Source: Paracidovorax citrulli
GTDB taxonomy: Bacteria; Pseudomonadota; Gammaproteobacteria; Burkholderiales; Burkholderiaceae_C
Reading direction: 5' to 3'
NCBI RefSeq assembly: GCF_900100305.1
Contig: NZ_FNEY01000037.1
Location: 1-43,822 of the forward strand
DNA length: 43,822 bases
Positions 1-17,145 of the stretch are shown in pieces. The translations under genes and the position numbers were made by a program. How positions within the stretch are numbered: position 1 is the stretch's first letter; every line of letters starts with the position of its first letter. Under the pieces are notes generated by a model. The model was not told the origin of the DNA. It worked only from the letters and a program-made list of their open reading frames with translations, and did no database searches.

Positions 1-325
1 AACATCGGCGTACGCATCGAGCGCGTCATGACCGACAACGGCTCTGGCTACAAAAACGCCTTCCGCGCGGCCTGCGAGGAATTGGGCATCCGCCACATCC
101 GCACGCGGCCCTATACGCCCAAGACCAACGGCAAGGCCGAGCGATTCGTACAGACCAGCCTGCGGGAGTGGGCCTATGCCAGACCCTACGAAAGCTCAGC
201 CCAACGCACGGCTGCCCTGCAGCCCTTCATTGACGGCTACAACTGGTGCCGGCCACACTCCGCGCTCGGCCATCAGCCTCCCATCACACGCATTCCGGGT
301 GTGAACAACCTCGTGAGACTCAACA
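1..325 (+). mobile_element. IS481-family insertion sequence, 3' part only
   Basis: The right-hand part of an insertion sequence; its left part lies outside the window. The end is placed at 325 because the same terminal sequence, with outer bases TGTTGAGTCTCACGAGG when read inward from the end, stops at the same base in the second copy at 43653. The flanking bases 326-331 are TCTAGG, which fits the NCTAGN target known for IS481 of Bordetella pertussis. Family assignment comes from the encoded integrase-core protein and from this target preference. Confidence 0.85.
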
Positions 326-330
326 TCTAG
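1..330 (+). CDS. IS481-family transposase, C-terminal part (5' end outside window)
   Basis: DDE transposase catalysing IS movement. The frame is open from base 1 to the TAG at 328-330, giving 109 residues of the C-terminal integrase core. Visible motifs are MTDNGSGY, carrying the second catalytic Asp, and the TPKTNGKAERF block with the third catalytic acid (Glu), followed by the HSALGHQPP tail typical of IS481/IS3-type transposases. The last codon and the stop are partly outside the IS: codon 325-327 uses only one IS base and TAG comes from the CTAG target, so the protein ends LNI here and LNS in the other copy. Partial because of the window edge, not demonstrably broken. Confidence 0.9.
   Translation, partial: NIGVRIERVMTDNGSGYKNAFRAACEELGIRHIRTRPYTPKTNGKAERFVQTSLREWAYARPYESSAQRTAALQPFIDGYNWCRPHSALGHQPPITRIPGVNNLVRLNI
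156..325 (+). repeat. 170-bp inverted repeat shared by both window ends
   Basis: Bases 156-325 are identical, by eye, to the reverse complement of 43653-43822. Both are ends of the same insertion sequence. Identity stops exactly at the predicted IS border, where the flanks differ (TCTAGG here, ACTAGC on the plus strand at the other end). Confidence 0.95.
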
Positions 331-796: not shown

Positions 797-3700
797 TTAG
801 CTCTGCGGTGCCCTATCCGAAAGACGAGCGTAAACTTGGCTACCCAACCACTTGGACACCAGCTCCCGCATCTCTGGCTTGCCCATGTAATCAGTGAACA
901 GCTCCTCATTCAACTCCATGCGCTCGATAAATAGTGACTCAAGGACCTGCCGAAATACGAGCTGGAACTTGTCCAGAGAGTTGACCTCTGCTGCCTTCTG
1001 TAGGGACTCGTTCTGGCTTGCAGCTTCGGTGATCTGATCGAAAAACAATTGATCTGCCTCATTTAACTCGCCGCCGAAGCGCTGATTGATGATGTCGATC
1101 AGGCGTGACAGCGAAACGGGCTCCTCACGCACCATGCCTGAGCCCACCTCTCGCGGGCCGTCAAGCGGTTTGGCATAGCCCTCATTGAGGCTAATCGAGC
1201 CTTCGCTGATTTTCTGCAAGCGGTAGTAATCGAGTTCGACTTCCTCGTCGAACTGATAGCCCGGCCCGCTCTTGCGCTTGGGCAACTTCAGCGCGAGATG
1301 GCGCAGGTAGGTGAAGAGTTTTTCCAGATCGCTGTCCTGATAGGGAATCACCTGGCTCAGGAAACCGTACAGATTGCGAAAGGCCTGCAACTTGCTGCGC
1401 CACAACTCCGCTTCGTCTTCTTCGGTGTTCTGCAACCGCACAAAGCGCGCGACCGCCAGATCAAGAGTCGCATTCATCAGCTTATGGTCACCAGGGCTCT
1501 GGCGGCGCTTAGGCGCAAAGAACACATGCGCAAACTCGACAATCTCCGTTTGCAGGTAAATGCCCGAGGCATCCAGTTCGGCCTTCACCTCGTAGAGCTT
1601 GTCTGGATCTACCTGCTCGCCCATCACCGAGCCGTCGTAGTATTGACGGAAGGCCTCCTGGATTTCGTCGGGATCGTTGACGAAATCGAGCACGAAGGTA
1701 TCGTCCTTGAGTGGGTGGGTTCGGTTCAAGCGCGACAAGGTCTGAACGGCTTGAATGCCCGCCAACCGTTTGTCCACGTACATGGTGTGCAACAACGGCT
1801 GGTCGAAGCCGGTCTGGTATTTCTCGGCCACCAGCAGCACGCGGAATTCCGGTTTGGCGAAGGTGTCTGGCAGTTCCTTCTCCTTCAGGCCGCCATTCAT
1901 CTCGACTTCCGTGTATGACTTCTCCGGAATCTTGTCGTCTTCCACCGTGCCCGAGAACGCCACCAGGCTCTTGATGGGGTAGCCCTTCTCCTGAATGTAG
2001 CGGTCGAACTCCTGCTTGTAGCGCACCGCTTCCAGTCGCGAGCCGGTCACCACCATCGCCTTGGCATGGCCGCCGATCTTGTGCCGCGTGAAGTGTTGGA
2101 AATGCTCGACCATCACCTCGGTCTTCTGGCCAATGTTGTGCGGATGCAGCCGCATGAAACGGGCCAACGCCTTGGCCGCCTTCTTGCGCTCGACGTTGGG
2201 GTCGTCCTCGGCCTTCTTGATCAGCTTGTAGTAGGTCTTGTAGGTGACGTAGCTCTTGAGCACATCCTCGATAAAGCCCTCCTCGATGGCCTGGCGCATG
2301 GTGTAGCGGTGGAAGGGCTCGCCGCCCCGGCCAAAGATCGCCAATGTCTTGTGTTTGGGCGTGGCGGTGAAAGCGAAAAAGCTCATGTTCGGTTGATGGC
2401 CCCTCTTGGCCATGGAACGGAACAGTCGCTCCAGTTCGACTTCGCCTTCCTCCTCGGCCATCTCTTGTGCCTTGCGGCGCAGCTCGGCACCGCCCAGCAC
2501 ACCTTTCAACTCCGAGGCCGTCTCGCCCGATTGCGAACTGTGCGCCTCGTCGATGATTACAGCGTACTTGCGCGTGGGCAGATGGCTCTTGCTGCCTTCG
2601 CCACGCTCCTCACTAAGCTTGGCTAGTTGCCCGGACACGAACGGAAATTTTTGCAGCGTGGTGATGATGATTGGCACGCCGGCTTCCAGCGCTTCGGCGA
2701 GCTGGCGCGAGTCCTCATCGATCTTCTGCACAACGCCCTGGCGGTGGTCAAACTGGTAGATGGTGTTCTGCAACTGGCGGTCGAGCACCACCCGGTCGGT
2801 GATGACCACCACGCTGTCAAACAGTCGCTCGTCGCGCTCGTTGTGCAGGCTGGACAGACGGTGCGCCAGCCAGGCAATCGTGTTGCTCTTGCCGCTGCCG
2901 GCCGAATGCTCGACCAAGTAGTTATGCCCCGCGCCCTCGCTGGCGGCGGCCGCCACCATCCGGCGCACAGCCTGCAACTGGTGATAACGCGGAAAGATCA
3001 GGCTTTCCTTGCGCACCTTCTTACCGACGTTAGTGGTCTTTTCTTCCACATCGAGATGCAGGAAACGGGCGAGCAGGTCGAGCAGGCTGTCGCGCTGTAG
3101 CACCTCTTCCCACAGGTAGGCTGTCTTGTAGTTGCGCCCTTCACGATCGGGCGGGTTACCGGCGCCACCGTCCATGCCCCGGTTGAACGGCAGGAAGTAA
3201 GTGGACGAACCGGCCAGGCGAGTGGCCATGTGTGCTTCTTCAGTATCTACAGCGAAGTGCACCAGCGCGCGCTTGGTGAACTCGAAGATTGGTTCACGCG
3301 GATCGCGGTCGTGGCGATACTGGTGGATGGCATTCGCTGCCGTCTGGCCGCTCAAGGGGTTCTTGAGTTCCAGCGTCACCACCGGAATGCCGTTGACCGA
3401 CAACACTACATCCAGAGACTTCTCAGACTTCGGGCTGAAATGCAATTGGCGGGTCAGACCCAGCCGGTTGGCCTGGTAGCGCGCCTCCAGTTCCGGGTTC
3501 AGGCCGTGGGCGGGGCGAAAGAAGGCTATCCGCAGCGTGCGCCCGAAGCATTTGAAACCGTGGCGCAGCGTGGCCAGGGCGCCATGGGTATCCAGCCACT
3601 TGCATAGCGACTCCAGCACGCGCGCACCGGTCTGCTCGCCGTGCAGGGCTTCTAGCTTCTCCCACACCTTGCCCTGGGTGGCACGGATGAAGGCCAGTGC

Positions 3701-3820
3701 CTCATCGAGGAAAATCGCGCGCTCGCGGTCGAAGCCTTTGACGTCGACCCGCGTATATCCTTCACTCAGCAAGACCGCCTCGATGGCGGTTTCGAATGCG
3801 ACTTCACTGGTGCGCTTCAT
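797..3820 (-). CDS. hsdR: type I restriction endonuclease subunit R (HsdR)
   Basis: The 1007-residue motor and nuclease subunit of a type I restriction-modification complex; it translocates unmodified DNA with ATP and cuts it. Visible elements are a PD-(D/E)xK nuclease with D137 and E151-L-K153, a Walker A motif around 305-312 (HSAGSGKS), a DEAH box at 424-427, and TAT at 485-487 as in superfamily 2 helicases. An open frame runs 29 codons further upstream, but ATG at 3820 is chosen because it overlaps the ptuB stop (ATGA) and begins the conserved MKRTSEVAFE start. Last gene of the defence operon. Only a weak hairpin and no clear terminator follow it before the island end. Confidence 0.95.
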   Translation of the reverse strand: MKRTSEVAFETAIEAVLLSEGYTRVDVKGFDRERAIFLDEALAFIRATQGKVWEKLEALHGEQTGARVLESLCKWLDTHGALATLRHGFKCFGRTLRIAFFRPAHGLNPELEARYQANRLGLTRQLHFSPKSEKSLDVVLSVNGIPVVTLELKNPLSGQTAANAIHQYRHDRDPREPIFEFTKRALVHFAVDTEEAHMATRLAGSSTYFLPFNRGMDGGAGNPPDREGRNYKTAYLWEEVLQRDSLLDLLARFLHLDVEEKTTNVGKKVRKESLIFPRYHQLQAVRRMVAAAASEGAGHNYLVEHSAGSGKSNTIAWLAHRLSSLHNERDERLFDSVVVITDRVVLDRQLQNTIYQFDHRQGVVQKIDEDSRQLAEALEAGVPIIITTLQKFPFVSGQLAKLSEERGEGSKSHLPTRKYAVIIDEAHSSQSGETASELKGVLGGAELRRKAQEMAEEEGEVELERLFRSMAKRGHQPNMSFFAFTATPKHKTLAIFGRGGEPFHRYTMRQAIEEGFIEDVLKSYVTYKTYYKLIKKAEDDPNVERKKAAKALARFMRLHPHNIGQKTEVMVEHFQHFTRHKIGGHAKAMVVTGSRLEAVRYKQEFDRYIQEKGYPIKSLVAFSGTVEDDKIPEKSYTEVEMNGGLKEKELPDTFAKPEFRVLLVAEKYQTGFDQPLLHTMYVDKRLAGIQAVQTLSRLNRTHPLKDDTFVLDFVNDPDEIQEAFRQYYDGSVMGEQVDPDKLYEVKAELDASGIYLQTEIVEFAHVFFAPKRRQSPGDHKLMNATLDLAVARFVRLQNTEEDEAELWRSKLQAFRNLYGFLSQVIPYQDSDLEKLFTYLRHLALKLPKRKSGPGYQFDEEVELDYYRLQKISEGSISLNEGYAKPLDGPREVGSGMVREEPVSLSRLIDIINQRFGGELNEADQLFFDQITEAASQNESLQKAAEVNSLDKFQLVFRQVLESLFIERMELNEELFTDYMGKPEMRELVSKWLGSQVYARLSDRAPQS

Positions 3821-4446
3821 ACGGCGGTCCTCGCTTGTTTCTTTCGTAGCCAATAGACGACCACCTGTGCGAACTCGGGCAGGTCGCCGGATTCGCTGCC
3901 ATCCCACTTGGGTAGCTCACGCGCCGGATCAACGCGACGGCCGTCTTGCAGGCGCTGCTGAAACGCAGCGAGCACCGCCTTGCGATTGCTCACCAGGCGC
4001 GGCAGGTTCGGGTTGAGCACCGCGGTGAGGGCTTCTTCGATGGCGGCATCGTCTGCCTTGATGGTGCCATCGCCTAAAAAGCGAATCTTGTACTCGATGG
4101 GGTGCGCCGGGTCGCATACGCTGAAGCAAAGGCCGTCATTGCCCTTGCGCGTATCGCAATGCTGCTCGCGCTCGGGACGGCCGTGCCCGCCCAGACAGGC
4201 GCCGTGCAGATTGCCAAAATCGAGCTGCCGCCCGGGGTGGCTGGCCTGACATTGCCAGTGCTCGATCTTCATGCCCTCGGGCGTGGCCCGGATGCGCGAC
4301 TGGCAGTAGCAGCACAGGCCGCGCTGCTCGGCCACCAGCGCCTGCTGCAAAGTCGCCTTGTCGGCGTAATTGTCGTAGTCGGCATGCGGCTGCTGGCGAT
4401 GCTGTGTCAAGGTCGCGGGCTCCGGCCCCTTCTGGATGGTCCGCAT
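3817..4446 (-). CDS. ptuB: PtuB-like HNH nuclease (Septu-type, TIGR02646-like)
   Basis: A 209-residue HNH endonuclease of the kind paired with an ABC-type ATPase in Septu antiphage systems. Visible are a Cys pair C45-x-x-C48 (GLCCYC), I61-E62-H63, then D76-F-G-N79-L-H81-x-x-C84 and a later C97-D98, the zinc-stabilised HNH pattern. Its ATG abuts the ptuA stop (TAG then ATG, no spacer) and its TGA overlaps the hsdR start, so it is embedded between hsdS-ptuA and hsdR. In known Septu systems PtuB is the DNA-cutting or toxic effector held by PtuA. An alternative is an uncharacterised HNH accessory of the restriction system; no reverse transcriptase is nearby, so it is not the retron-linked form. 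Confidence 0.82.
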   Translation of the reverse strand: MRTIQKGPEPATLTQHRQQPHADYDNYADKATLQQALVAEQRGLCCYCQSRIRATPEGMKIEHWQCQASHPGRQLDFGNLHGACLGGHGRPEREQHCDTRKGNDGLCFSVCDPAHPIEYKIRFLGDGTIKADDAAIEEALTAVLNPNLPRLVSNRKAVLAAFQQRLQDGRRVDPARELPKWDGSESGDLPEFAQVVVYWLRKKQARTAV

Positions 4447-5760
4447 CTACTCGGCGCCCTCCAGAAAGCGGATCAGCGAACTGGCCCGGGTCAGCTCGGG
4501 CTCGTCCTCGCCCAGCTTGCGTTCGAGGGCCGCAATGGCGGCACGCGCCGCGTCGAAACGCTCCTGGTCGATCAGTTCGAAAAGCGCCTTCAGCTCACCG
4601 TCCACCTGCCGGTTTCGCACCGGGGCGCCCATGAACTCCTGCAGGATGCGGTTGGCGTCCATGCCATAGGCCTCGGCGGGCACGGTTACACCCACTTTGC
4701 CGTTCACGAATTCGAGGAAGCGCACACAGCGCGCCGGCACCTCGCCCAGCACCAGGGGCGAATGGGTCGTCACCACGAGCTGGCAGGCCTTGAAGATGTC
4801 TCGCAGGCGCTGCAGGACATCGCGCTGCCACTTGGGATGCAGGTGCAGCTCGATCTCGTCGATCAACACCAGCCCCACGCCCTCGGCGATGGGGTTGTCA
4901 CTCTCTGGGTTGGCGATGGCCAAGCGTCGGGTGAGATCGAACACCAGGGCCAGCAGGCCGCGTTCGCCATCGGAAAGCTGGTGCAGATAGAAGGGCTGGC
5001 CGCGTTTGTCCACCACGAAGCCAAGTCGCGGTTGTTCCTGGATGCGCAGGTTGCCGAACTCGGGCAGGAGTTCAACCACCACGGCGCGCAATGCGTCCAG
5101 CACCTTGAACCGGCGCGGTTCATTGGCCGCGCCCAGCTTCTCCTGGGTGCGAAACCAGTGCATGAACTCGCGCAGCTCTACTTCGCGGTCGTGCAGGGCG
5201 CGGCCATAGGCGATGGACGGGTAGAAGGGCGTGGCCTCCGGCAGGCTGCGCGGCTGGCCGGGCAACTGGCGCTTGGGCGAGAAATACACCGCCAATGGCG
5301 GATGGGAAGCATTCTTCAGGATCGCTAGCGCGGCGCGGGTTTCCTTGATGCCAACCTCCAGCTCACCGGTCAGCGTGCGGGTGCTCAGCGCGTGGGCGAA
5401 ATCGGTGTCGTCGGTGGCAGCTTTGGCCTGCCGCAGCAGCATGAAGCGGTCGCCCTTATCGTCCGTCGCGCGCAAGCGCTGCACGCCGGCATTGATGATC
5501 TGCCCGTCGATCTGGATGCGTGCGGACACCTCCAGCGAGCCCTTGTCACCGTGGATGTCGTCATCGGTGAAGTACAGCGGCGCCGAACGCGAGGGCGTGA
5601 ACTCCGGCATTGCCCGTGACAGCAGCACCGTCAGCGCATGCAGCACGGTGGACTTTCCTACGCCGTTGACACCCGCGATCAGCGTCACATCCGGCTCGAA
5701 AGCGATGTCGAGCTGCTCGAAGCCGCCGCAGTGCGCGAGGGATAGGGATTCCAGCTTCAT
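4447..5760 (-). CDS. ptuA: PtuA-like ABC/RecF-type ATPase (Septu-type)
   Basis: A 437-residue ATPase. Walker A GVNGVGKST is at 30-38, the ABC signature LSDGE at 262-266, Walker B LVLIDE around 297-302 and the switch histidine H333 (TTHSP). This is the SMC/RecF/OLD-like layout without a long coiled coil or a C-terminal TOPRIM nuclease, as in PtuA. The start ATG at 5760 overlaps the hsdS stop by ATGA, and the stop abuts the ptuB start. Known PtuA-PtuB form a complex in which ATP binding restrains the nuclease; that role is inferred here from family and pairing. Calling it an OLD-family protein is less likely because the nuclease is supplied by the separate downstream gene. Confidence 0.82.
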   Translation of the reverse strand: MKLESLSLAHCGGFEQLDIAFEPDVTLIAGVNGVGKSTVLHALTVLLSRAMPEFTPSRSAPLYFTDDDIHGDKGSLEVSARIQIDGQIINAGVQRLRATDDKGDRFMLLRQAKAATDDTDFAHALSTRTLTGELEVGIKETRAALAILKNASHPPLAVYFSPKRQLPGQPRSLPEATPFYPSIAYGRALHDREVELREFMHWFRTQEKLGAANEPRRFKVLDALRAVVVELLPEFGNLRIQEQPRLGFVVDKRGQPFYLHQLSDGERGLLALVFDLTRRLAIANPESDNPIAEGVGLVLIDEIELHLHPKWQRDVLQRLRDIFKACQLVVTTHSPLVLGEVPARCVRFLEFVNGKVGVTVPAEAYGMDANRILQEFMGAPVRNRQVDGELKALFELIDQERFDAARAAIAALERKLGEDEPELTRASSLIRFLEGAE

Positions 5761-7046
5761 CCGGCTAGCTCCTCCAGCGGAATCTGGCCGGTAACTCCGG
5801 CCGTGATCAGCGCCGCGCGGCGTTCGATAAGCAGGCGCAGCGAGTCTCGCAGTTCGCCGCGGAGCGTCTCAAGCCGCGAATGCCTGACTGCCAGGAAATT
5901 TTGGATTGCGAGCTGCTCGCTTACCGGTGGCAAGGGAACGGGAAGCTCCTTGATGTTCGATCCAGATATGGATGCAAGATTGGTCGACCGCTTAGCGCGG
6001 CTCTCGAAATAGCGCTTTGCCTGGATCGTCGATGTCCAAAGCGCGAGCCAATCGGAATCAACAGAATGTGGCCGGACAGCAAAGACGTGGTTCTGATGGA
6101 GGCAAGGCGAAATCTCGTCTCGCCAAACACAGCCCCTGCCGAGCTTGTCGATGTCACCCCCCTCGTTCATCAACACATCGCCATATACCAGAAGGTTCGA
6201 TGCGGCCTCTGAGGCGGGCACCTCAACTGTCAGTACGTCGTCCAGCTTAAGGTACCCATCCTGTACGTTTGCGACACGTAGGTAGGGGTACTCCAACAAT
6301 TCGCCGGAGTACTGCTTGCCCAGTGTCAATCCACCTCGAACCTCGGCAAGCTGCTTTAGGCGTTGCAAACCCCAATGCACCGGAATCTCGCCCAACCATT
6401 CCTGGCCGGAGGGTTTGAGCGGGGCGTTGGGGTCAAGGCCGCGGGTGACGACACGGCTGATGAGAGCGGCGCGCTTTTCTTCCAGTAGCGCCAGCATACG
6501 CTCCTTCTCGGCGATCAGTCCGTCGATGCCGGCGGTTTCGCGGTCGAGGTAGTTGGCGATGAGGCGCTGTTCTTCGAGTGGTGGAACTTTGACTTCCAGC
6601 GATCCGATGAAATCCCAGTTGGCACGCGGCATTTTGGCGCCGAAGGTTGACGCATCAACGGCACCAACGAAATCTGGCGTCAAGATGGAGTAGAGCAGGA
6701 AGCGTGGTTCGAGAAGCTCCGAAGGCCGCATGACGAGCAACTCGGTCGAGCCGACACCATCACGCGGTGCGTGACACGCCTTGGCCAAATAAGGGCGAAG
6801 TTTGCAAAACAGCACATCGCCTTCCCTGAATATATTGGCAAGCCCCGCGCTTTGGTCGGCGGGCTCGTCATCCCGCTTCGATTCGACCTCGATGATCCTG
6901 CCCGTCCACGATTCGATGTTTTCAAGGCCAAGGTAGCCGGGATGGTCGGAACCGGCGGACATGCGTTCGTTTCGTAAAGGTGCAACGAATTTCAAGCGTG
7001 CCAATCGCCACACTTCAGGATCGACTCGCACAGTCGATGTGTTCAC
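5757..7046 (-). CDS. hsdS: type I restriction specificity subunit (HsdS)
   Basis: The 429-residue DNA-recognition subunit. Two target-recognition domains are seen, about residues 10-150 and 215-370. Each is followed by the conserved helical spacer starting PPLEEQ / PPVSEQ and ending EKRAALI.. / ERRAALI.., the internal repeat typical of HsdS. It starts with GTG at 7046, which shares GTGA with the hsdM stop. The sequence predicts a bipartite recognition site but not its bases. The gene reads unbroken, and no second hsdS or inverted-repeat switching cassette is present, so phase variation by recombination is not indicated. Confidence 0.94.
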   Translation of the reverse strand: MNTSTVRVDPEVWRLARLKFVAPLRNERMSAGSDHPGYLGLENIESWTGRIIEVESKRDDEPADQSAGLANIFREGDVLFCKLRPYLAKACHAPRDGVGSTELLVMRPSELLEPRFLLYSILTPDFVGAVDASTFGAKMPRANWDFIGSLEVKVPPLEEQRLIANYLDRETAGIDGLIAEKERMLALLEEKRAALISRVVTRGLDPNAPLKPSGQEWLGEIPVHWGLQRLKQLAEVRGGLTLGKQYSGELLEYPYLRVANVQDGYLKLDDVLTVEVPASEAASNLLVYGDVLMNEGGDIDKLGRGCVWRDEISPCLHQNHVFAVRPHSVDSDWLALWTSTIQAKRYFESRAKRSTNLASISGSNIKELPVPLPPVSEQLAIQNFLAVRHSRLETLRGELRDSLRLLIERRAALITAGVTGQIPLEELAG

Positions 7047-9172
7047 TCCGTCACCTCCCGCAGCAAATCGAGAATCCGCTTCTCAACTTCCGCAAGCTCC
7101 GCATCGATCTCATGCAGCGGGCGTGGCGGCTGGTACTGGAAGAACACGCGGTTGAAGTTAATCTCGTAGCCCACCTTGCCGATGCCGCCGTCCTGCTCGT
7201 CCAGCGTGGCGCGGTCGATCCAGGCATCCGGCACGTAGGTCCGCACCTCGCGCAGCACGTAGCTGACGATGTCCTCTTTCAGCGGGATGTTCTCGGCATC
7301 CTTGAGCGCCGGGTCAGGCACGTACTCGATGTGTTTTCCCTTGCCGTCGGCGTGCAGGCCCAGCAACTCGTACAGATCATCCTTGCAGAGGTCGGCGGGG
7401 AGCGTCTGCCCGGGGAACAGAGCGGCACAGTCGAGCGGCTCGATCTTGTGGTGCTTGTCGACGACGGGCGCGGCCTCGGGATCGACCACGGTGAAGCAGT
7501 CGCGGAAGATCTTCTTTTGCGCGGTGCCCTTGGCGCCCTTGGCCCAGCCATCGATGTTGTCGGGCAGGGCCTTAAATACCTGCTGCACGGCGCCCCAGGC
7601 CTGGTTCCAGTCCAGCAGCGGCTCGGTGCCGAGGTCTTCCTGCACAGCCTGCAGCGCGTCGAACAGCTCGGGGCAGACATTGAGGAAGCGCTCGCGCGTC
7701 TCATCGGTGATCTGGAAGCGCAGGCGCAGCGGGCGCAGCACTGTGATGCGGCGGTACCCGAAGTCGGCGTTGTCGAAGACGCGGCTGGTCTTGCTGTCTT
7801 CCAGCGCGCCGTGTTCGCGGGTGACGTCATCAAGCGCAGCCTGGTCGAGGTAGCGGCGCTTGTCGCCCAGGCTGCGCTTCATTGGTGTGTAGCGTTCGCG
7901 GGCGTCGATGAGCTGGATCTTGCTCTTGCGGTGCGAGGCCTTGCGATTGGTGACCACCCAGATGAAGGTGCCGATACCCGTGTTGTAGAACATCTGCTCG
8001 GGCAAGGCGACGATGGCCTCCAACTGGTCACGCTCGATGATCCAGCGGCGGATGTCGCTCTCGCCGCTGCCCGCACCGCCGGTGAACAGCGGCGAGCCAT
8101 TGAAGACGACGGCCGTTCGCGAGCCAGGCTTGTCGCGGCTTCCAGGCTTGTACTCCTGGAACTTGCTCATCATGTAGAGCAGGAACAACAGGGCGCCGTC
8201 GTTGATGCGTGGCAGCTTGCCGCTGTAGCCACGGAAGTTAGGCCAGCGGTCGATGACCTTCTTCTCAGCCTTCCAGTCCACGCCGAAGGGCGGGTTGGCC
8301 AGCAGGTAGTCGAAGCGCTGCTCCGGAAAGGGGTCGTCGGTGAGGGTGTTGCCCAGCACCACTTGGCCGTCCTTGTGGCCTTTGATCAAGAGATCGGAGG
8401 CGGCCACGGCATAGGAGCGTGGGTTGTAGTCCTGCCCGAAGACCTTGACCGTGGCCTGCTCGTTGTGGGCGCGAATCCAGTTCTGCGCCTCGGCCAGCAT
8501 GCCGCCGGTACCGCAGGCCGGGTCGCAGATGGTGACGATGACGCCGGCCTGGGTGAGCACGCTAGTGTCGGGCTCCAGCAGCAGGTTGACCATGAGCTGG
8601 ATCACTTCGCGCGGAGTGAAGTGATCGCCCGCCGTTTCGTTGGCGGCTTCGTTGAAGCGCCGGATCAGGTCTTCGAACACCAGCCCCATGGTGATGTTGT
8701 CCACCCGCTTGGGGTGCAGGTCGATCTCGGCGAACTGGGACACCACCTGGTAGAGACGGTTGGACTCTTCGAGCTTCTCGATCTCCTTGTCGAACTCGAA
8801 GCGTTCGAAGATCTTGCGGACGTTCTCTGAGAAGCCGGCGATGTAGTCGGCCAAGTGGCGACCGATGTTATCGGGGTCGCCCTTGAGCTTTTGGAAGTCA
8901 AGCTGGCTGTGGTTATGAAAACCCAGCGGGGTGCCGCCCTCATCCTTGGCCAGGTTGTTGAGGATGGCGTCGATGTTCGGGATGTTCTTCGCCCTGAGCG
9001 GCTCGTAGCGCTTGAGCACGGCCTCCTTGCTCGGTGCCAGTACGGCATCGAAGCGACGCAGCACCGTGAGCGGCAGCATGACGCGCTCGTACTGCGGCGG
9101 ACGATAGGGGCCACGCAGCAGGTCGGCTACCGACCAGATGAAATTGGCGAGTTGCTGAAAGTTAACGCTCAT
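7043..9172 (-). CDS. hsdM: type I DNA methyltransferase subunit (HsdM)
   Basis: A 709-residue N6-adenine methyltransferase subunit. The N-terminal helical HsdM domain (about 1-130) is followed by the SAM-binding motif DPACGTGG at 217-224 and the catalytic NPPF at 293-296. It is longer than the classical 520-residue HsdM because of an extra C-terminal region of unknown role, as in the large-HsdM subgroup. The ATG at 9172 follows the mrr-like stop by 26 bp with a weak AG-rich ribosome site. It protects host DNA and, with HsdS and HsdR, forms the restriction complex. Confidence 0.94.
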   Translation of the reverse strand: MSVNFQQLANFIWSVADLLRGPYRPPQYERVMLPLTVLRRFDAVLAPSKEAVLKRYEPLRAKNIPNIDAILNNLAKDEGGTPLGFHNHSQLDFQKLKGDPDNIGRHLADYIAGFSENVRKIFERFEFDKEIEKLEESNRLYQVVSQFAEIDLHPKRVDNITMGLVFEDLIRRFNEAANETAGDHFTPREVIQLMVNLLLEPDTSVLTQAGVIVTICDPACGTGGMLAEAQNWIRAHNEQATVKVFGQDYNPRSYAVAASDLLIKGHKDGQVVLGNTLTDDPFPEQRFDYLLANPPFGVDWKAEKKVIDRWPNFRGYSGKLPRINDGALLFLLYMMSKFQEYKPGSRDKPGSRTAVVFNGSPLFTGGAGSGESDIRRWIIERDQLEAIVALPEQMFYNTGIGTFIWVVTNRKASHRKSKIQLIDARERYTPMKRSLGDKRRYLDQAALDDVTREHGALEDSKTSRVFDNADFGYRRITVLRPLRLRFQITDETRERFLNVCPELFDALQAVQEDLGTEPLLDWNQAWGAVQQVFKALPDNIDGWAKGAKGTAQKKIFRDCFTVVDPEAAPVVDKHHKIEPLDCAALFPGQTLPADLCKDDLYELLGLHADGKGKHIEYVPDPALKDAENIPLKEDIVSYVLREVRTYVPDAWIDRATLDEQDGGIGKVGYEINFNRVFFQYQPPRPLHEIDAELAEVEKRILDLLREVTE

Positions 9173-9198: not shown

Positions 9199-10191
9199 TT
9201 AGGCCGGCCAGTACAGCCGCTTCAACGGCACGATCCGTTTGGTTTCAGCGTCGGTCCCGTCGTAGTGCTCAATCAGCGCCCGCACTACGTGGTCCAGCGT
9301 CCACATCGCCAACGGAATGGAGGCGCGGTCAGCTTCGTACAGAGCGTCCTTACTGAAACCGCCCGTGCTGACATACAGCCCGCGATCATCCTTGTGGCGG
9401 CCGCCGAGGAAGCTACGAATCTCCTGGCTACCCATCTGTCCCTTGCGATGCTTGACCTCTACGACGATGCGCGGGTGCTCGAAGCCGAAGCCATCCGGGG
9501 AGGCCACGATGTCCTTCCCACGGTCGGAGCCGGGCGGCGAGACCTGGGTCTTGTAGCCCATGGCGCGCAGGATGCCGGCGACCAATTGCTGCATGTCGTC
9601 CCAGTCCAGTTCGTTGACCCGGTCCTTGATGCGTTCCAGCGCCTGAGACTCGATGTCGGCCAGCGGATCGGCGATGACTTCCTCGGCCTCCTCTTCCACT
9701 GTTGGTGCCGGTTTACCCTTCAGTGCGGCCAGCACTTCGGCTGCCGCGCTGGGCGGTACCTCAAAGAGGGTCAGGGTCGAACCCAGGCTGTTTTTGCTGC
9801 TCGTGCCCAAGTTATCGCGCGGCAGTTCCTGCGCTTGCCACTGCACCTTGCGCACCAGGGGCATGCCTTGCTCGGCCCACTCAGGGTGGTACTCGGCTGG
9901 TCCAGTGACATTGCCGATTGAGTACAGGCGATTGGCGGGCGAATAGGTGATGACCCAGTCACCCTCCTCAATGTCGTTGACGAAGCGCCAGACCTGGGAT
10001 GCGCCCGAAACCACCGTGCCTTGTTTTGCCAGGGGCTCGGCGGACTGGTACAGGGCGATCAACTGCTTGCGCCCGACACCGGGCTTGGCATGTGCCGCCA
10101 ACTGGTTCCAGCCCACGGCAGCTACGCCGCGTTCCCGAAAAGCGTCGTACAGGCTGCCGCCTTCACCGCGCACCATCCACATTCTGGTCAT
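9199..10191 (-). CDS. Mrr-like restriction endonuclease with N-terminal EVE/PUA-like domain
   Basis: A 330-residue protein. The C-terminal Mrr_cat domain (PD-(D/E)xK) shows G225-K-D227 and E245-V-K247, then S255-Q256-E-I. The N-terminal ~150 residues (GDWVITY, YSIGNVTG) resemble an EVE/PUA-like base-reading domain. Mrr-type enzymes cleave DNA carrying modified bases. The start is ATG at 10191 with AGAGGG about 7 bp upstream; an ORF ten codons longer exists but lacks a ribosome site. It lies 26 bp upstream of hsdM in the same direction, so it is probably part of the same operon. Activity must be compatible with the neighbouring methyltransferase. Confidence 0.85.
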   Translation of the reverse strand: MTRMWMVRGEGGSLYDAFRERGVAAVGWNQLAAHAKPGVGRKQLIALYQSAEPLAKQGTVVSGASQVWRFVNDIEEGDWVITYSPANRLYSIGNVTGPAEYHPEWAEQGMPLVRKVQWQAQELPRDNLGTSSKNSLGSTLTLFEVPPSAAAEVLAALKGKPAPTVEEEAEEVIADPLADIESQALERIKDRVNELDWDDMQQLVAGILRAMGYKTQVSPPGSDRGKDIVASPDGFGFEHPRIVVEVKHRKGQMGSQEIRSFLGGRHKDDRGLYVSTGGFSKDALYEADRASIPLAMWTLDHVVRALIEHYDGTDAETKRIVPLKRLYWPA

Positions 10192-10217: not shown

Positions 10218-10541
10218 TCAATCCAACACGACCATGAATTCAGTCGCCAGTGCAGTCGGTTGGACATCTCTGACATTGCGCTGCAACGAGACCAGACCGT
10301 AATCCGCCATCAGACGCAAGGTACGGGACAAATTTGGAACCTTTCGACCGCTGAGCTCCGCCAATTCTGTTAGTGACTTCGGCTGCTTCTCGTGAATTAG
10401 GCGCAGCAAGCGTCGGTTGTCATCTGAGAGCACGGCAGCAAGAGACGCCAACGAACTGAACCAAATCTGCGGCGTTTCGTCCCTTGGTCGATGAGGATGC
10501 GCGCCATCTGGTCGTTGAATGCCGACGATGCACCGTTTCAT
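10218..10541 (-). CDS. winged-helix DNA-binding regulator (HVO_A0114/MarR-like)
   Basis: A 107-residue protein with a winged-helix fold: the helices SLTELAELSGRKVPNLSRTL and LRLMADYGL and the wing VSLQRNVRDVQPTALA are visible. First gene of the leftward defence operon, 26 bp before the Mrr-like gene, so most likely its regulator. Related proteins can also be antitoxins of the TumA type, but no partner toxin lies beside it. The start at 10541 (MKRC) is preferred because TACAAT, a likely -10 box, overlaps the earlier ATG at 10571; that longer start would add ten residues. Confidence 0.75.
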   Translation of the reverse strand: MKRCIVGIQRPDGAHPHRPRDETPQIWFSSLASLAAVLSDDNRRLLRLIHEKQPKSLTELAELSGRKVPNLSRTLRLMADYGLVSLQRNVRDVQPTALATEFMVVLD

Positions 10542-10570
10542 GATGAGTCCCGAGATATGCGTCCAGTTCA

Positions 10571-10588
10571 TTGTATCAGTATGTGATA
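10571..10588 (-). promoter_or_regulatory. candidate promoter and operator of the defence operon
   Basis: On the minus strand a TACAAT -10-like box precedes the regulator start by about 30 bp, and an inverted repeat TATCA-N5-TGATA (10574-10588) overlaps it. No good -35 box is seen at the usual distance, which would fit an activator or a weak promoter. The dyad could be the regulator's own binding site. Position and symmetry only. Confidence 0.35.
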
Positions 10589-11890: not shown

Positions 11891-12838
11891 TTATCTGGCA
11901 CCGGCGATCCGCGCCAGCGTCTCGTCAAGCTGCTGGCGATCTGCCGCGCTCTTGGCCTCCGTGCGCTGAGCCAAGTTGTGAAGCTTGCGTCGCACACCTG
12001 GCAACTCGGCCGCATGAGCCAGTCCGATCAAACTGAAATCCGGCTTCTCATCCTCGACGGATTGCAGGAAGGCTCGCGACGGTCCATCCAGCCACTGCGC
12101 TACGCGCGCCAACAGGCGTTCGCGGCTCTCCAGCAGGGCCGCCACGCTGACAGGCTCGGACGTCATGCCCTTGAAATGGGCCTCGAAGGTGGCCTCGAAA
12201 TCCCCCGTGACGCGCGGCGCCAGCATCTCCCAGGCTGGCTTGGGGCTGCACGTCAGGTACACGAGGAAGGTGCGCCAGAGCACTTCGTCCGCTCGTTCGT
12301 CTTGCAGCAGCAGGCCCACATCGAAAAGATCGCGCGGATGCTGGCGCGACAGCGCAGCCGCCAGCTTGCCCGCATAGAGGTCGGCGAACGCCAGCACCTG
12401 CACCTCGGCAAAGCCGAAGGCCTCTTCGACCCGTGGCCGCACGACCATGGTTCGCACCGGATGCACCGTGCCACGCATGACCGGCGTCGTTTCGATCTGC
12501 ACGCGCGCGCGGCCGCGACTGGCCACCAAGCGATTCACCGCCCCACCCTCGCCCGCCGAGGTCTGCACCTGCAATTGCAGAGGCCGGGCGCGCAACGCGT
12601 CGGCCAGACGTCCGAGTGCTTCGGCGATCAGCTTCGCATCCTCGGCGTAGTCGTGCACCGGCAACCAGGCCAGATCAATGTCTACCGACAGGCGCGGCAG
12701 ATCGTGCTCGAACAGGTTGATGGCCGTACCTCCCTTGAGCGCGAAGCGCGGCTCCTGCGCCAGCACCGGCAGGATCTCGACCAGCAGCCGCACCCTGTCC
12801 GTGTAGCGCCCGTCCCAATGGTCAAGCCAAGTGCTCAT
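11891..12838 (-). CDS. abiEii: AbiEii-type nucleotidyltransferase toxin
   Basis: A 315-residue toxin of a type IV toxin-antitoxin and abortive-infection system. Nucleotidyltransferase motifs are seen: FALKGGTAINLF (about 31-42) and the D-x-D metal site in SVDIDLAWL (about 52-60). Downstream is a conserved KLAAALSRQHPRDLFDVGLLL block. AbiEii proteins bind nucleotides and arrest growth, in characterised homologues by modifying tRNA. The start ATG at 12838 (MSTWLDHW) lies 17 bp inside the abiEi end; a longer frame exists but has no support. Translationally coupled to abiEi. Confidence 0.92.
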   Translation of the reverse strand: MSTWLDHWDGRYTDRVRLLVEILPVLAQEPRFALKGGTAINLFEHDLPRLSVDIDLAWLPVHDYAEDAKLIAEALGRLADALRARPLQLQVQTSAGEGGAVNRLVASRGRARVQIETTPVMRGTVHPVRTMVVRPRVEEAFGFAEVQVLAFADLYAGKLAAALSRQHPRDLFDVGLLLQDERADEVLWRTFLVYLTCSPKPAWEMLAPRVTGDFEATFEAHFKGMTSEPVSVAALLESRERLLARVAQWLDGPSRAFLQSVEDEKPDFSLIGLAHAAELPGVRRKLHNLAQRTEAKSAADRQQLDETLARIAGAR

Positions 12839-13643
12839 CGAGGTCTCCCGGCAAGGTGATCTGATAGGTCGGATGCAGGCGCCCGCCGGGCACCAGCGCG
12901 CGTTTGCCACGGCCGAGATCAACGCCCTCCAGGGGCACGTGCGACAGCCACGCATGCCGATGGCGCTCGGCCAGGGCCAGGAACAGCCGCTTCGCCTTGA
13001 TGCTGCGACAGTGGCGCAACAGCAGGCCGACCCGCTGCGGCCGCAGCGTGGTCATGGCCTGCATCAGCGCATCGGCCTCGTAGACCCCTGCCGCATCCGA
13101 CACGCTGTCGCACAGTTCCAGCATGGCCCGCTCGGGCGTCGAGCAGACCAGCGCATTGGTCCCAGGTGCTGCTGAATGCCAAGCTAGGCCCGCTTCCGAC
13201 AACGCCTTCTCGGAGACTTCCGCAGTGACAGGCACGGCCGGGAGATCGAGCGGACCCTTGCCCTGGTACTCGAAGCGTTGCTCCAGCGAAAGCTTGTCCA
13301 CCCAGCCCGGCAGTTGCTGTGGCCCATACAGCGTGATCGTCCCGGCATCGCCCAGGCGCAGGTAGTGCTCGTGGCCCTGCAGGCCGAGCGCGAAGCGTCC
13401 CCCGACGTGCAGCGGCATGCCCTCGCCGACCTGCAGGCTGCGGACCACACCATCCCATTGCAGCCGCCCGCCTCTGCGCATGTAGACACCACGCGCCGGC
13501 GACACCAGCCAGCCGCTGCCCACATAGCGCGCCACAAGGCTATTGGAGTAGCCGTGCGCCCGGAGCCAGCGGCTGGACACTAGGTGAGTATCGCCCAGCT
13601 CGGCCAGCAAACGGTTCAGCTTTCCTGAATTTTGAGCATCCAT
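12822..13643 (-). CDS. abiEi: AbiEi-type antitoxin and autorepressor
   Basis: A 273-residue antitoxin. The N-terminal winged helix (about 1-60, LLAELGDTHLVSSRWLRAHG then a GWLVSPARGVYMR wing) is followed by the C-terminal AbiEi antitoxin domain. In characterised systems AbiEi neutralises AbiEii without forming a stable complex and represses its own promoter by binding inverted repeats. The start ATG at 13643 (MDAQNSGK) is chosen by homology; no clear Shine-Dalgarno is seen, and a perfect palindrome spans this start, so the mRNA may have a very short leader. Overlaps abiEii by 17 bp. Confidence 0.9.
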   Translation of the reverse strand: MDAQNSGKLNRLLAELGDTHLVSSRWLRAHGYSNSLVARYVGSGWLVSPARGVYMRRGGRLQWDGVVRSLQVGEGMPLHVGGRFALGLQGHEHYLRLGDAGTITLYGPQQLPGWVDKLSLEQRFEYQGKGPLDLPAVPVTAEVSEKALSEAGLAWHSAAPGTNALVCSTPERAMLELCDSVSDAAGVYEADALMQAMTTLRPQRVGLLLRHCRSIKAKRLFLALAERHRHAWLSHVPLEGVDLGRGKRALVPGGRLHPTYQITLPGDLDEHLA

Positions 13644-13655
13644 AGTGCTCAAAAT
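13629..13655. promoter_or_regulatory. inverted repeat over the abiEi start, candidate AbiEi operator
   Basis: A perfect 10-bp inverted repeat ATTTTGAGCA / TGCTCAAAAT with a 7-bp spacer, 27 bp in all, centred on the abiEi ATG. A TATTTT -10-like box lies in the upstream arm, with TTGGTG 17 bp before it on the minus strand. Characterised AbiEi repressors bind inverted repeats of about this size in their promoter, so autoregulation is likely. Confidence 0.6.
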
Positions 13656-13709
13656 AACAGATTTATAAACCTTCACCAAGATAGGCCAGTTTGACAAGGG
13701 CCACAAAGA

Positions 13710-13724
13710 ATCACTCAGAGTGAT
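13710..13724. other. short palindrome between integrase relic and abiEi
   Basis: ATCACTC-A-GAGTGAT, arms of 7 bp around one base. As RNA it gives a small hairpin with a 3-nt loop followed by an impure T run on either strand. It could be a weak terminator for the integrase transcript or a second regulatory site for abiE; the sequence does not decide. Confidence 0.3.
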
Positions 13725-13798
13725 CTTTTCGCCATGCCAGCAAACCTTGCACTCGTCGCCGACAGGAGTCTCGATACGGTCATCATGCGGCCCTCCCT

Positions 13799-14730
13799 TC
13801 ACAAAGCCGCGCTGAGAACCGGGACCGATGTGTTCTCCGGCAGCAGCTTCGGCACATGGGTGCGCCCGTCGATCCAGGCATCGACCATGTCCGCCCACTC
13901 CTGCAGCATGTGCCGCCGCTGCTCAGCGTACTCGGCCTTGTTGTAGATCGAGCGCGAGGAGCGCCCTTCCTCGTGTGCCAGGCACTTCTCGATCCAGTCG
14001 CCGTTGAAGCCCACTTCGTTGAGCAGCGTCGAGCCCGTGCGGCGAAGGTCATGCACCGTGAAAGGCCCCAACGGCAGGCCTGCAGCCTGGGCTCGCGACA
14101 CGATGAGCTGGGTCACGCGGTTCAAGGTCGCATGCGACATGCAACGGGTCGGCTCGTAGCGCGAGGGCAACACGAACTTCGAGCCCGCCGCGCAGGTGTG
14201 CAACGCCACCAGGATGTCCATGGCCTGCCGTGACAGATAGACCACATGTGGATTGCGCCCCTTCATCCGCTGCTTCGGAATCGTCCAGGTCGCGTTCTCG
14301 AAGTCGATCTCGCTCCAGGTGGCCTCGATCAGTTCGCTCTTGCGCACCAAGGTCAGCAGGACCATGCGCAGTGCCAAGCGGATCGTCGGGTATGTCGCAA
14401 TGGACTCCAACTGTTGGAACGCCAAGCGGATCTCGGTCGGCGACAGCGCCCGGTCTTTCGGCACGAAGGTGGCGATCAAGGCGGCCGCCACGTCGTTGGC
14501 CGGGTTGTCCACCCTCTCCCCATGCAGGATGGCAAAGGCATAGACCTGCTTCACGATGTCGCGGACATGCCATAGCGACCAATGGTCAGGGTCTCACGGC
14601 GCCCGTTGAGACGGTAATCGTAGCGGAAGGTGACGGTACCGGCGGGCGATACCGTCACGTACATCCCATCCCGATCAGAAGCCTTATAAGTCAAGGACTT
14701 AGGCTTCAGGTTGCGCAGTGCTGTGTCGAG
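13799..14730 (-). pseudogene. P4-type tyrosine integrase, disrupted
   Basis: Site-specific recombinase that would have integrated the island at guaA. The N-terminal arm-binding part (54 codons from 14730, with ALRNLKPKSLTYKASDRDGMY and ending TIGRYG) and the C-terminal part (from 14569, beginning HVRDIVKQVYAF) are in different frames. They are separated by a junction at about 14569-14571, so roughly 80-90 residues of the core-binding domain are deleted. The catalytic region is intact to the eye: R in LVRKSEL, HDLRRT, LAH and the tyrosine in SIYNKAEY. In addition, where AGGAGG (14736-14741) predicts the start there is CTC, not a start codon. A catalytic-domain protein from GTG at 14554 is possible but should be inactive. 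Confidence 0.85.
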
Positions 14731-15026: not shown

Positions 15027-16652
<1,626 letters not shown>

Positions 16653-16707
16653 GGTGGTCGGGAGAGAACGGTGAGCGGAAAGAGAAAGGGTGGGAAATCG
16701 CGAGGGA

Positions 16708-17145
16708 TCAGAACGTGGACAGGTCGAGCAGCGCCACGCCGGTCCGCGCGGCGGCCCCGGCCTGCGCGGCATCGAACGTGGCAAGCGGCAGACGCAGCGA
16801 GCGCGCGAGCCAGACATAGGCGGCGTCATAGACCGGCAGGCCGGTATCGAGCGCGACATCCAGCACGGCCTTGTGCTGCGCCGGAGCCAGCTCGTGCAGT
16901 TCCACGCGGTGGCGGATGGCTTCGAGCACGGACCAGAGACCTTCGACGGAGCCTGCGGGAATGCGGCCGGCATGCACGCCGCTCGCGATCAGGTTGCCGC
17001 ATTCCCACTGCCAGAGATTGGGCGCCTGGGGCTCGACCTCGTCGCGGCGGATGCGGGCATAGAGGCGCCGCGTGTGATCGCTGGCTGCATCGGGCAGGAG
17101 CCAGGCGGCGGTCACGGAAGCATCGAGCACGAAGGCGGTGGTCAT
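16708..17145 (-). CDS. VapC-type PIN-domain toxin
   Basis: A 145-residue PIN ribonuclease. Acidic site residues are visible: D8 (VLDAS), E48 (WQWECGN), D107 (VYDAAY) and D125 (TFD). VapC toxins cut specific RNAs, often tRNA or rRNA. The ATG at 17145 overlaps the antitoxin stop by ATGA, typical of toxin-antitoxin pairs. It sits between guaB and guaA on the same strand, so readthrough from guaB may express it. 55 bp with no clear promoter separate it from guaA. Confidence 0.9.

Follow-up and report, generated by a model that had tools for sequence, protein, structure and literature searches.

We analysed a 43,822-nucleotide stretch of Paracidovorax citrulli DNA (contig NZ_FNEY01000037.1; hereafter the window) in which a Septu gene pair, ptuA and ptuB, lies between hsdS and hsdR of a type I restriction–modification (RM) operon. 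PtuA sequences indicate that Septu nested in this way constitutes a separate, widespread lineage. We give even odds to a two-part reading, in which the locus would be a horizontally mobile type I RM operon with a dedicated Septu lineage in its hsdS–hsdR slot and the arrangement would resemble that of PrrC, Septu being an effector held by the restriction complex and fired by anti-restriction.

An earlier note, made from the sequence alone, had placed hsdM, hsdS, ptuA, ptuB and hsdR in this order on one strand with four named junctions, and the open reading frames (ORFs) and the sequence confirm it: GTGA joins hsdM to hsdS, ATGA hsdS to ptuA, TAG directly followed by ATG ptuA to ptuB, and ATGA ptuB to hsdR. 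From these overlaps the note deduced translational coupling of the pair to both neighbours. An alternative GTG start of hsdR at 3907 would lengthen its ORF into ptuB. With HsdM, HsdS and HsdR encoded on one strand by overlapping or adjacent genes, the locus is a predicted type I RM system. The 4-base hsdS–ptuA overlap is identical in 29 of the 32 other loci of the clade described below (the exceptions being L004, L026 and L128; such numbers denote compared loci), so this junction is not a matter of chance.

The identity of the pair as PtuA and PtuB, also proposed in the earlier note, was upheld by PADLOC profiles, whose general Septu models already catch it, and by relatives in the Protein Data Bank (PDB). 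Namely, 12 of the 16 PDB sequences matched by PtuA are Septu or retron PtuA-type ATPases (E 5.5e-38 to 9.3e-32), with 8ee4 and 22et named PtuA and 22bu and 9n69 named AAA family ATPase. The HNH protein of the window had no Pfam match at E 0.001; a 23-row PtuB profile matched the Septu PtuB chain 8ee7 (72.4 bits) as well as retron PtuB chains. PtuA residues K36, D301, E302 and H333 are kept in 33 of 33 PtuA sequences, a set from which the L117 protein was excluded as not being PtuA. With a PtuA-type ATPase gene directly adjoining ptuB and with intact Walker A, Walker B and HNH residues, the pair is a putative Septu system.

Other assignments were rejected. The best 21 PADLOC rows of PtuA are PtuA or retron ATPase_I-A, AriA comes next at 92.3 bits, and the sole OLD chain matched, 6p74, reached 35 bits; OLD/GajA was thereby excluded, as was an unrelated HNH identity by the PtuB profile matches (PADLOC and 8ee7). 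The pair is not of the retron I-A (Ec78) form, because the NCBIfam Ec78 models match below their cut-offs (PtuA 233.6 of 500 bits, PtuB 96.1 of 150 bits). No reverse transcriptase was found among the nine proteins scanned between 797 and 13811 (hsd, Ptu, Mrr-like, helix-turn-helix and AbiE), msr-msd not having been searched for. As for PrrC, a family of single-chain anticodon nucleases, the best PADLOC and NCBIfam matches are instead PtuA and PtuB, and PrrC is absent from the best 25 of 154 PADLOC rows for PtuA and the best 25 of 26 for PtuB.

Recurrence, lineage and slot contents

Scanning one genome per species with peptide patterns of the window PtuA, a design that favours near relatives, yielded 28 PtuA contigs, 25 of them with hsdS directly upstream. 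L020 begins inside ptuA, and L028 and L029, Bacteroidetes and Cytophagales by record title, lie outside hsd loci. All five genes follow in order, in some cases with extra genes between, in 22 of the 26 hsd contigs; these 22 include contigs on which hsdR is truncated at the end (L006, L007, L025), hsdR is in pieces (L004, L021, L024) or ptuA is interrupted (L023). Record titles, many of them of metagenome bins, range over Pseudomonadota, Verrucomicrobiota, Acidobacteriota, Cyanobacteriota, Thermodesulfobacteriota, Campylobacterota, Myxococcota and Chlorobiota, and records not marked as bins include Thiocapsa imhoffii, Pseudomonas marginalis, Achromobacter insolitus, Vandammella animalimorsus and Thauera phenolivorans. 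The same order occurs on a conjugative plasmid of Ketogulonicigenium vulgare (L165) and in the sole viral-collection contig found. Among 25 plasmid records with a PtuA match, six were examined: L165 and L166 are restriction-nested, and L167–L170 are without hsd genes by profile. The recurrence across lineages that the earlier note had proposed to count was thus borne out, and together with the trees it excludes a strain-specific accident. One contig outside hsd loci, from a Bacteroidetes bin, carries two tandem PtuAB pairs (L028:3850-8481).

The careful PtuA tree (63 rows, omitting 25 far rows of 88, including restriction-nested L177) places the 35 restriction-clade PtuA on one side of a branch with support 96/79. 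This branch is present in 95% of 200 bootstrap trees and has none of the 28 other rows inside it, and the tool does not star it. The first tree, which has all 88 rows, shows 4 changes of the restriction label, whereas shuffles averaged 28.8 and 0 of 500 came as low. All 35 clade rows have hsdS directly upstream, with hsdR beyond contig reach in L008, L016 and L219; in every row, as reported for PrrC, the effector gene is hsd-linked and nested in a type I operon. The PtuA of L123 forms a long branch of unsure placement, and its PtuB groups elsewhere. In an HsdR tree (FastTree, long branches flagged), all 30 PtuAB rows fall in one clade of 35, which includes loci chosen for PtuA.

Eight PtuA residues mark the clade: each is shared by at least 90% of the 34 clade rows compared and occurs in at most 15% of the 22 nearer outsiders; for V31, V34, R267, G268 and G339 the outsiders reach at most 9%. 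Six of the eight (these five and E340) adjoin ATP motifs, the others being L196 and L224. We take V31 and V34 to lie in Walker A, R267 and G268 after the signature, and G339 and E340 after the H-loop. Such positions hint at an altered response to ATP, though conserved positions cluster there anyway.

PtuA-anchored sampling of 398 phylum genomes, in which the control gave a signal in 1 of 14 named genomes, found PtuA at 65 places (66 rows, two of them being one gene). Seven belong to the restriction clade, all behind hsdS, two lie in other type I loci (L138 and L177), and 56 stand outside recognisable hsd loci. The resulting 9 of 65 is a lower bound, because at least 4 of the 56 places begin at a contig end (L173, L174, L202 and L211); distant hsd families may also escape the profiles. 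PtuAB has been embedded in other type I loci three separate times, in L138, in L177 and in an Enterobacter plasmid locus beside Tn7-like genes. In the last of these (L166, Enterobacter sp. MGH 14 plasmid), where the type I locus is a different one, a gene for an SprT-type metalloprotease comes next.

We then viewed the slot from the side of HsdR, sampling 398 phylum genomes at E 1e-50 and 369 class, 399 order and 399 family genomes at 1e-290, the samples partly overlapping. The phylum sample gave 65 matches, of which 54 besides the window were retrieved and 10 weaker ones (454 bits or less) dropped. With six retrieved loci lacking a visible hsdS left out, 70 loci could be compared: 16 of the window HsdR clade (over 1500 bits) and 54 of other clades, most of the latter stemming from the phylum sample with its looser limit. 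PtuAB occupies the slot in 11 of the 16 and in 0 of the 54 (Fisher p = 2e-9, relatedness ignored). The five PtuAB-free loci carry IetAS (L064), SoFic (L129), a PD-Lambda-5-like module (L116), a 639-aa AriA/Old/GajA-like ATPase alone in the slot (L117:3789-5708) and, in L122, no plus-strand ORF of 140 aa. In the window and L129, HsdR is 92% identical, and the slot is with PtuAB in one and without it in the other. Among the 54 other-clade loci, the gap measures at least 300 bp and holds a cargo ORF of at least 140 aa in 35, and it is under 100 bp in 10; eight cargo proteins scanned, from seven loci, proved to be Fic, Schlafen/AlbA (two), FRG, GmrSD, KAP, HNH_2 and macro-domain proteins. The slot accepts cargo in general, yet PtuAB is concentrated in one HsdR clade.

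Further cargo was seen in passing. In L061, PtuAB is followed by two ORFs sized like the IetAS pair of L064 (332 and 874 aa). L087–L089, L091 and L092, of another HsdR clade, share a recurring two-gene cargo, perhaps DarTG-like, one of whose members in L087 is a macro-domain protein. A second insertion site lies between hsdM and hsdS: L006 has a PDC-S02 gene there, and L003, L004 and L019 encode proteins that weakly match pAgo or SIR2-PNTD types.

Both Septu genes are under purifying selection. Across ten pairs chosen by hand, with synonymous change near saturation in some, dN/dS was 0.08–0.16 for ptuA (9 computable) and 0.08–0.26 for ptuB (5 computable), alongside 0.06–0.20 for hsdM (10 pairs), 0.04–0.10 for hsdR (8) and 0.23–0.55 for hsdS (10). 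PtuA tracks HsdM and HsdR at least as well as it tracks PtuB: over 27 loci, rank correlations of protein distances were 0.86 for HsdM–HsdR, 0.73 for HsdM–PtuA, 0.67 for PtuA–HsdR, 0.60 for PtuA–PtuB, 0.32 for HsdM–PtuB, 0.26 for PtuB–HsdR and 0.29–0.52 for pairs involving HsdS, figures whose differences are untested, whose shared history is uncorrected and whose PtuB distances are near saturation. PtuB itself falls into at least two types discordant with PtuA. The other type (224–238 aa) stands beside clade PtuA in L015, L017, L021, L027, L115 and L128, in the first four beside PtuA of differing branches, and the PtuB of L015, L017 and L027 has CGYTG in place of the window's CCYCQ. PtuB thus appears to be exchanged independently of PtuA.

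Explanations for the nested arrangement

If Septu is an effector held by the restriction complex, defence would have two layers. In the first, HsdMSR would methylate self DNA and cut unmodified DNA. In the second, PtuA, an ABC-type ATPase, would keep the HNH nuclease PtuB inactive until a phage disturbed the restriction complex or its nucleotide supply; the released PtuAB would then cut an essential target (tRNA or DNA) and stop the infected cell. This scheme would be that of PrrC in the EcoprrI locus, with Septu taking PrrC's place; we infer the control by the restriction complex, the trigger and the target. The nested lineage suggests, short of proof, a second weapon wired to the first: it was never seen apart from the operon, whereas many such operons lack it, the same asymmetry as reported for PrrC (PMC2610378). 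The resemblance is made closer by tRNA-Tyr. Septu EcB88 is reported to cleave it upon T6 infection, both active sites being required (PMC13096335), and the PtuAB of retron-Eco7 to deplete it, with the reverse transcriptase (RT) plus msr-msd neutralising PtuAB (PMC11555353). A bolder version, for which we hold somewhat less than even expectation, is a second guard family independent of PrrC: this Septu lineage would have become the abortive arm of one type I clade, in which PtuA would be docked to and held off by HsdM/HsdR and fired by phage anti-restriction, PtuB serving as an exchangeable warhead.

Several observations weigh against such control. In the same HsdR clade, IetAS, SoFic, PD-Lambda-5-like and AriA/Old-like cargo occupies the slot as well, and modules of this kind act without a restriction complex. 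Of the earlier note's proposal of a second-line effector guarded by the restriction complex, the Septu identity, the recurrence and the likeness to PrrC stand; frame overlap is not specific to PtuAB, the genes of other cargo in the slot often lying just as close together, and we therefore did not accept it as evidence that proves coupling. HsdR of L027 and L128 is 94–95% identical to that of the window and PtuA only 40%, which implies that PtuA alleles have been swapped between backbones. The nearest row outside the PtuA clade, L222, is stand-alone, and a promoterless operon passenger would stay linked too. Nor can the PtuAB target be assumed, because nicked DNA is the reported target of the E. 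coli ATCC25922 Septu (cited in PMC11555353) and the PtuAB of retron-Eco4 is likely not tRNA-targeting (PMC11555353).

The main alternative is a self-sufficient Septu that would sense infection by itself and use the hsd operon for expression and mobility only, the two systems adding up without contact, an account to which we grant slightly under an even chance. Stand-alone Septu is reported to work without restriction genes (PMC13096335), other cargo ORFs fill 35 of the 54 other-clade slots, and transfer of the whole operon holds genes together without interaction. Random filling of the slot, however, predicts many Septu branches, and the placed PtuA of the window HsdR clade sit on one that was not seen alone. 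PtuA also tracks HsdM and HsdR, yet local homologous recombination between operons could give both patterns. The ranking is therefore close, with an effector held by the restriction complex at even odds and independent cargo just behind, and the computed data separate neither decisively.

We consider it improbable that PtuAB acts on phage DNA in series with HsdR, as a DNA nuclease on its breaks, nicks or stalled translocation and not as the toxin of a guard. HsdR of type I enzymes makes DNA ends, and co-expression and a fixed order are compatible with serial action. The nicked-DNA report for ATCC25922 counts in its favour; against it, another stand-alone Septu and retron-Eco7 act on tRNA-Tyr (PMC13096335, PMC11555353), and 5 of the 16 loci of the window HsdR clade do without PtuAB.

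Features and surroundings of the operon

Upstream of hsdM, on the same strand, the window encodes a candidate Mrr-type endonuclease and a winged-helix regulator. The Mrr-type gene probably shares a transcript with hsdM, and because both genes precede hsdM on the same strand, the transcript may comprise seven genes. A promoter-like match at 10599-10570, just upstream of the winged-helix gene, is no better than shuffle expectation; matches in the promoter and terminator scan as a whole were not more numerous than in shuffles, and no tRNA genes were found in the window. In L027 and L128, ORFs of similar size (330 and 340 aa) precede hsdM, without profile identity.

Table 1. Annotated features of the window
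Feature	Position	Strand	Evidence and remarks
rve_3 (integrase core) transposase, C-terminal part	1-330		Runs off window start
hsdR, type I restriction/translocase subunit	797..3820	-	1007 aa from ATG 3820; HSDR_N, SWI2_SNF2, T1R_D3-like; PADLOC match
ptuB, HNH nuclease of Septu	3817..4446	-	209 aa, ATG; PADLOC PDLC00322 242.1 bits
PtuB HNH core, E62-H63 to N79	4210..4263	-	E62, H63, N79 in 32/32 aligned PtuB
ptuA, ABC-type ATPase of Septu	4447..5760	-	437 aa, ATG; Pfam AAA_21/AAA_15; PADLOC PDLC00271 408.8 bits
PtuA Walker A GVNGVGKS, residues 30-37	5650..5673	-	V31 and V34 typical of restriction-linked clade
hsdS, specificity subunit	5757..7046	-	429 aa, GTG; Methylase_S 51.8 bits and PADLOC match
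hsdM, type I methyltransferase subunit	7043..9172	-	709 aa, ATG; N6_Mtase 175 bits, HsdM_N 86.6; PADLOC PDLC03029 842.5 bits
Mrr-type restriction endonuclease candidate (PADLOC PDC-S02)	9199..10191	-	Mrr_cat 80.9 bits; PDLC04819 278.7 bits; 26 bases upstream of hsdM
Winged helix-turn-helix regulator	10218..10571	-	HVO_A0114 69.4 bits, MarR 30.2; first gene of presumed operon
AbiEii/AbiEi	11891-12847 and 12822-13811	-	Pair upstream of operon, same strand
Phage-type integrase	13799-14554		251 aa; some 470 bases from guaA
guaA (GMP synthase)	15027-16973		Beyond integrase

The operon seems to lie in a defence island or genomic island at guaA. Five genomes of the same genus had no match to the window HsdR (at E 1e-50 for two and 1e-290 for all five), and this absence at the limits used fits horizontal acquisition.

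Comparison with known systems

PrrC is the one textbook example of a suicide nuclease built into the locus of a restriction enzyme that it guards; its gene lies between hsdS and hsdR. If coupling holds for the nested Septu, PrrC would no longer be the sole such case, and Septu would gain a testable natural regulator and trigger. Similar HsdR backbones with or without PtuAB offer a ready experiment on how embedded defence genes come to depend on their host operon.

The earlier note had suggested that the arrangement might be undescribed or only sparsely noted. We found no description of PtuAB between hsdS and hsdR in the titles, abstract openings and passages obtained from searches of open full text, which exclude the Payne 2024 preprint on embedded systems, the likeliest listing; for this reason, an outright claim that it is undescribed cannot be made. 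One defence system embedded in another, including DarTG2 in this very slot, is already in print (PMC12255303). That type I operons can host embedded systems is therefore known, and what may be new is this Septu lineage in the slot.

Both proteins of the window match PtuA and PtuB profiles and solved chains of stand-alone Septu and keep the ATPase and HNH motifs; they differ from it in lying inside a type I operon, in forming their own PtuA branch and in altered residues beside the ATP motifs. Retron-Eco7 (Ec78) and retron-Eco4 offer a precedent for PtuAB as the toxic arm of a larger controlled system (PMC11555353), although PtuA of the window, at 437 aa, is shorter than the retron chains (about 550). 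Septu has also been mentioned as nested in another defence system (PMC12255303), the host there being Hma and not type I restriction. DarTG2 in the RptR defence island of enteropathogenic Escherichia coli (EPEC) occupies the same hsdS–hsdR slot behind an upstream regulator gene (PMC12255303), but its cargo is a toxin–antitoxin pair, and the first gene of the window operon encodes an HVO_A0114/MarR-like winged helix. A close parallel in organization and proposed logic is PrrC of the type IC EcoprrI locus, an hsd-linked ABC-ATPase effector family encoded inside the hsd locus (PMC2610378, PMC12707154). Its orthologues are described as 'invariably linked' to type Ic systems (PMC2610378), and EcoprrI is reported to keep PrrC silent until the phage peptide Stp sets it free (PMC2610378, PMC12707154). 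PrrC carries its nuclease part within a single chain, whereas the window has separate ATPase and HNH genes, and silencing by the restriction enzyme, shown for PrrC, would by analogy extend to the window pair.

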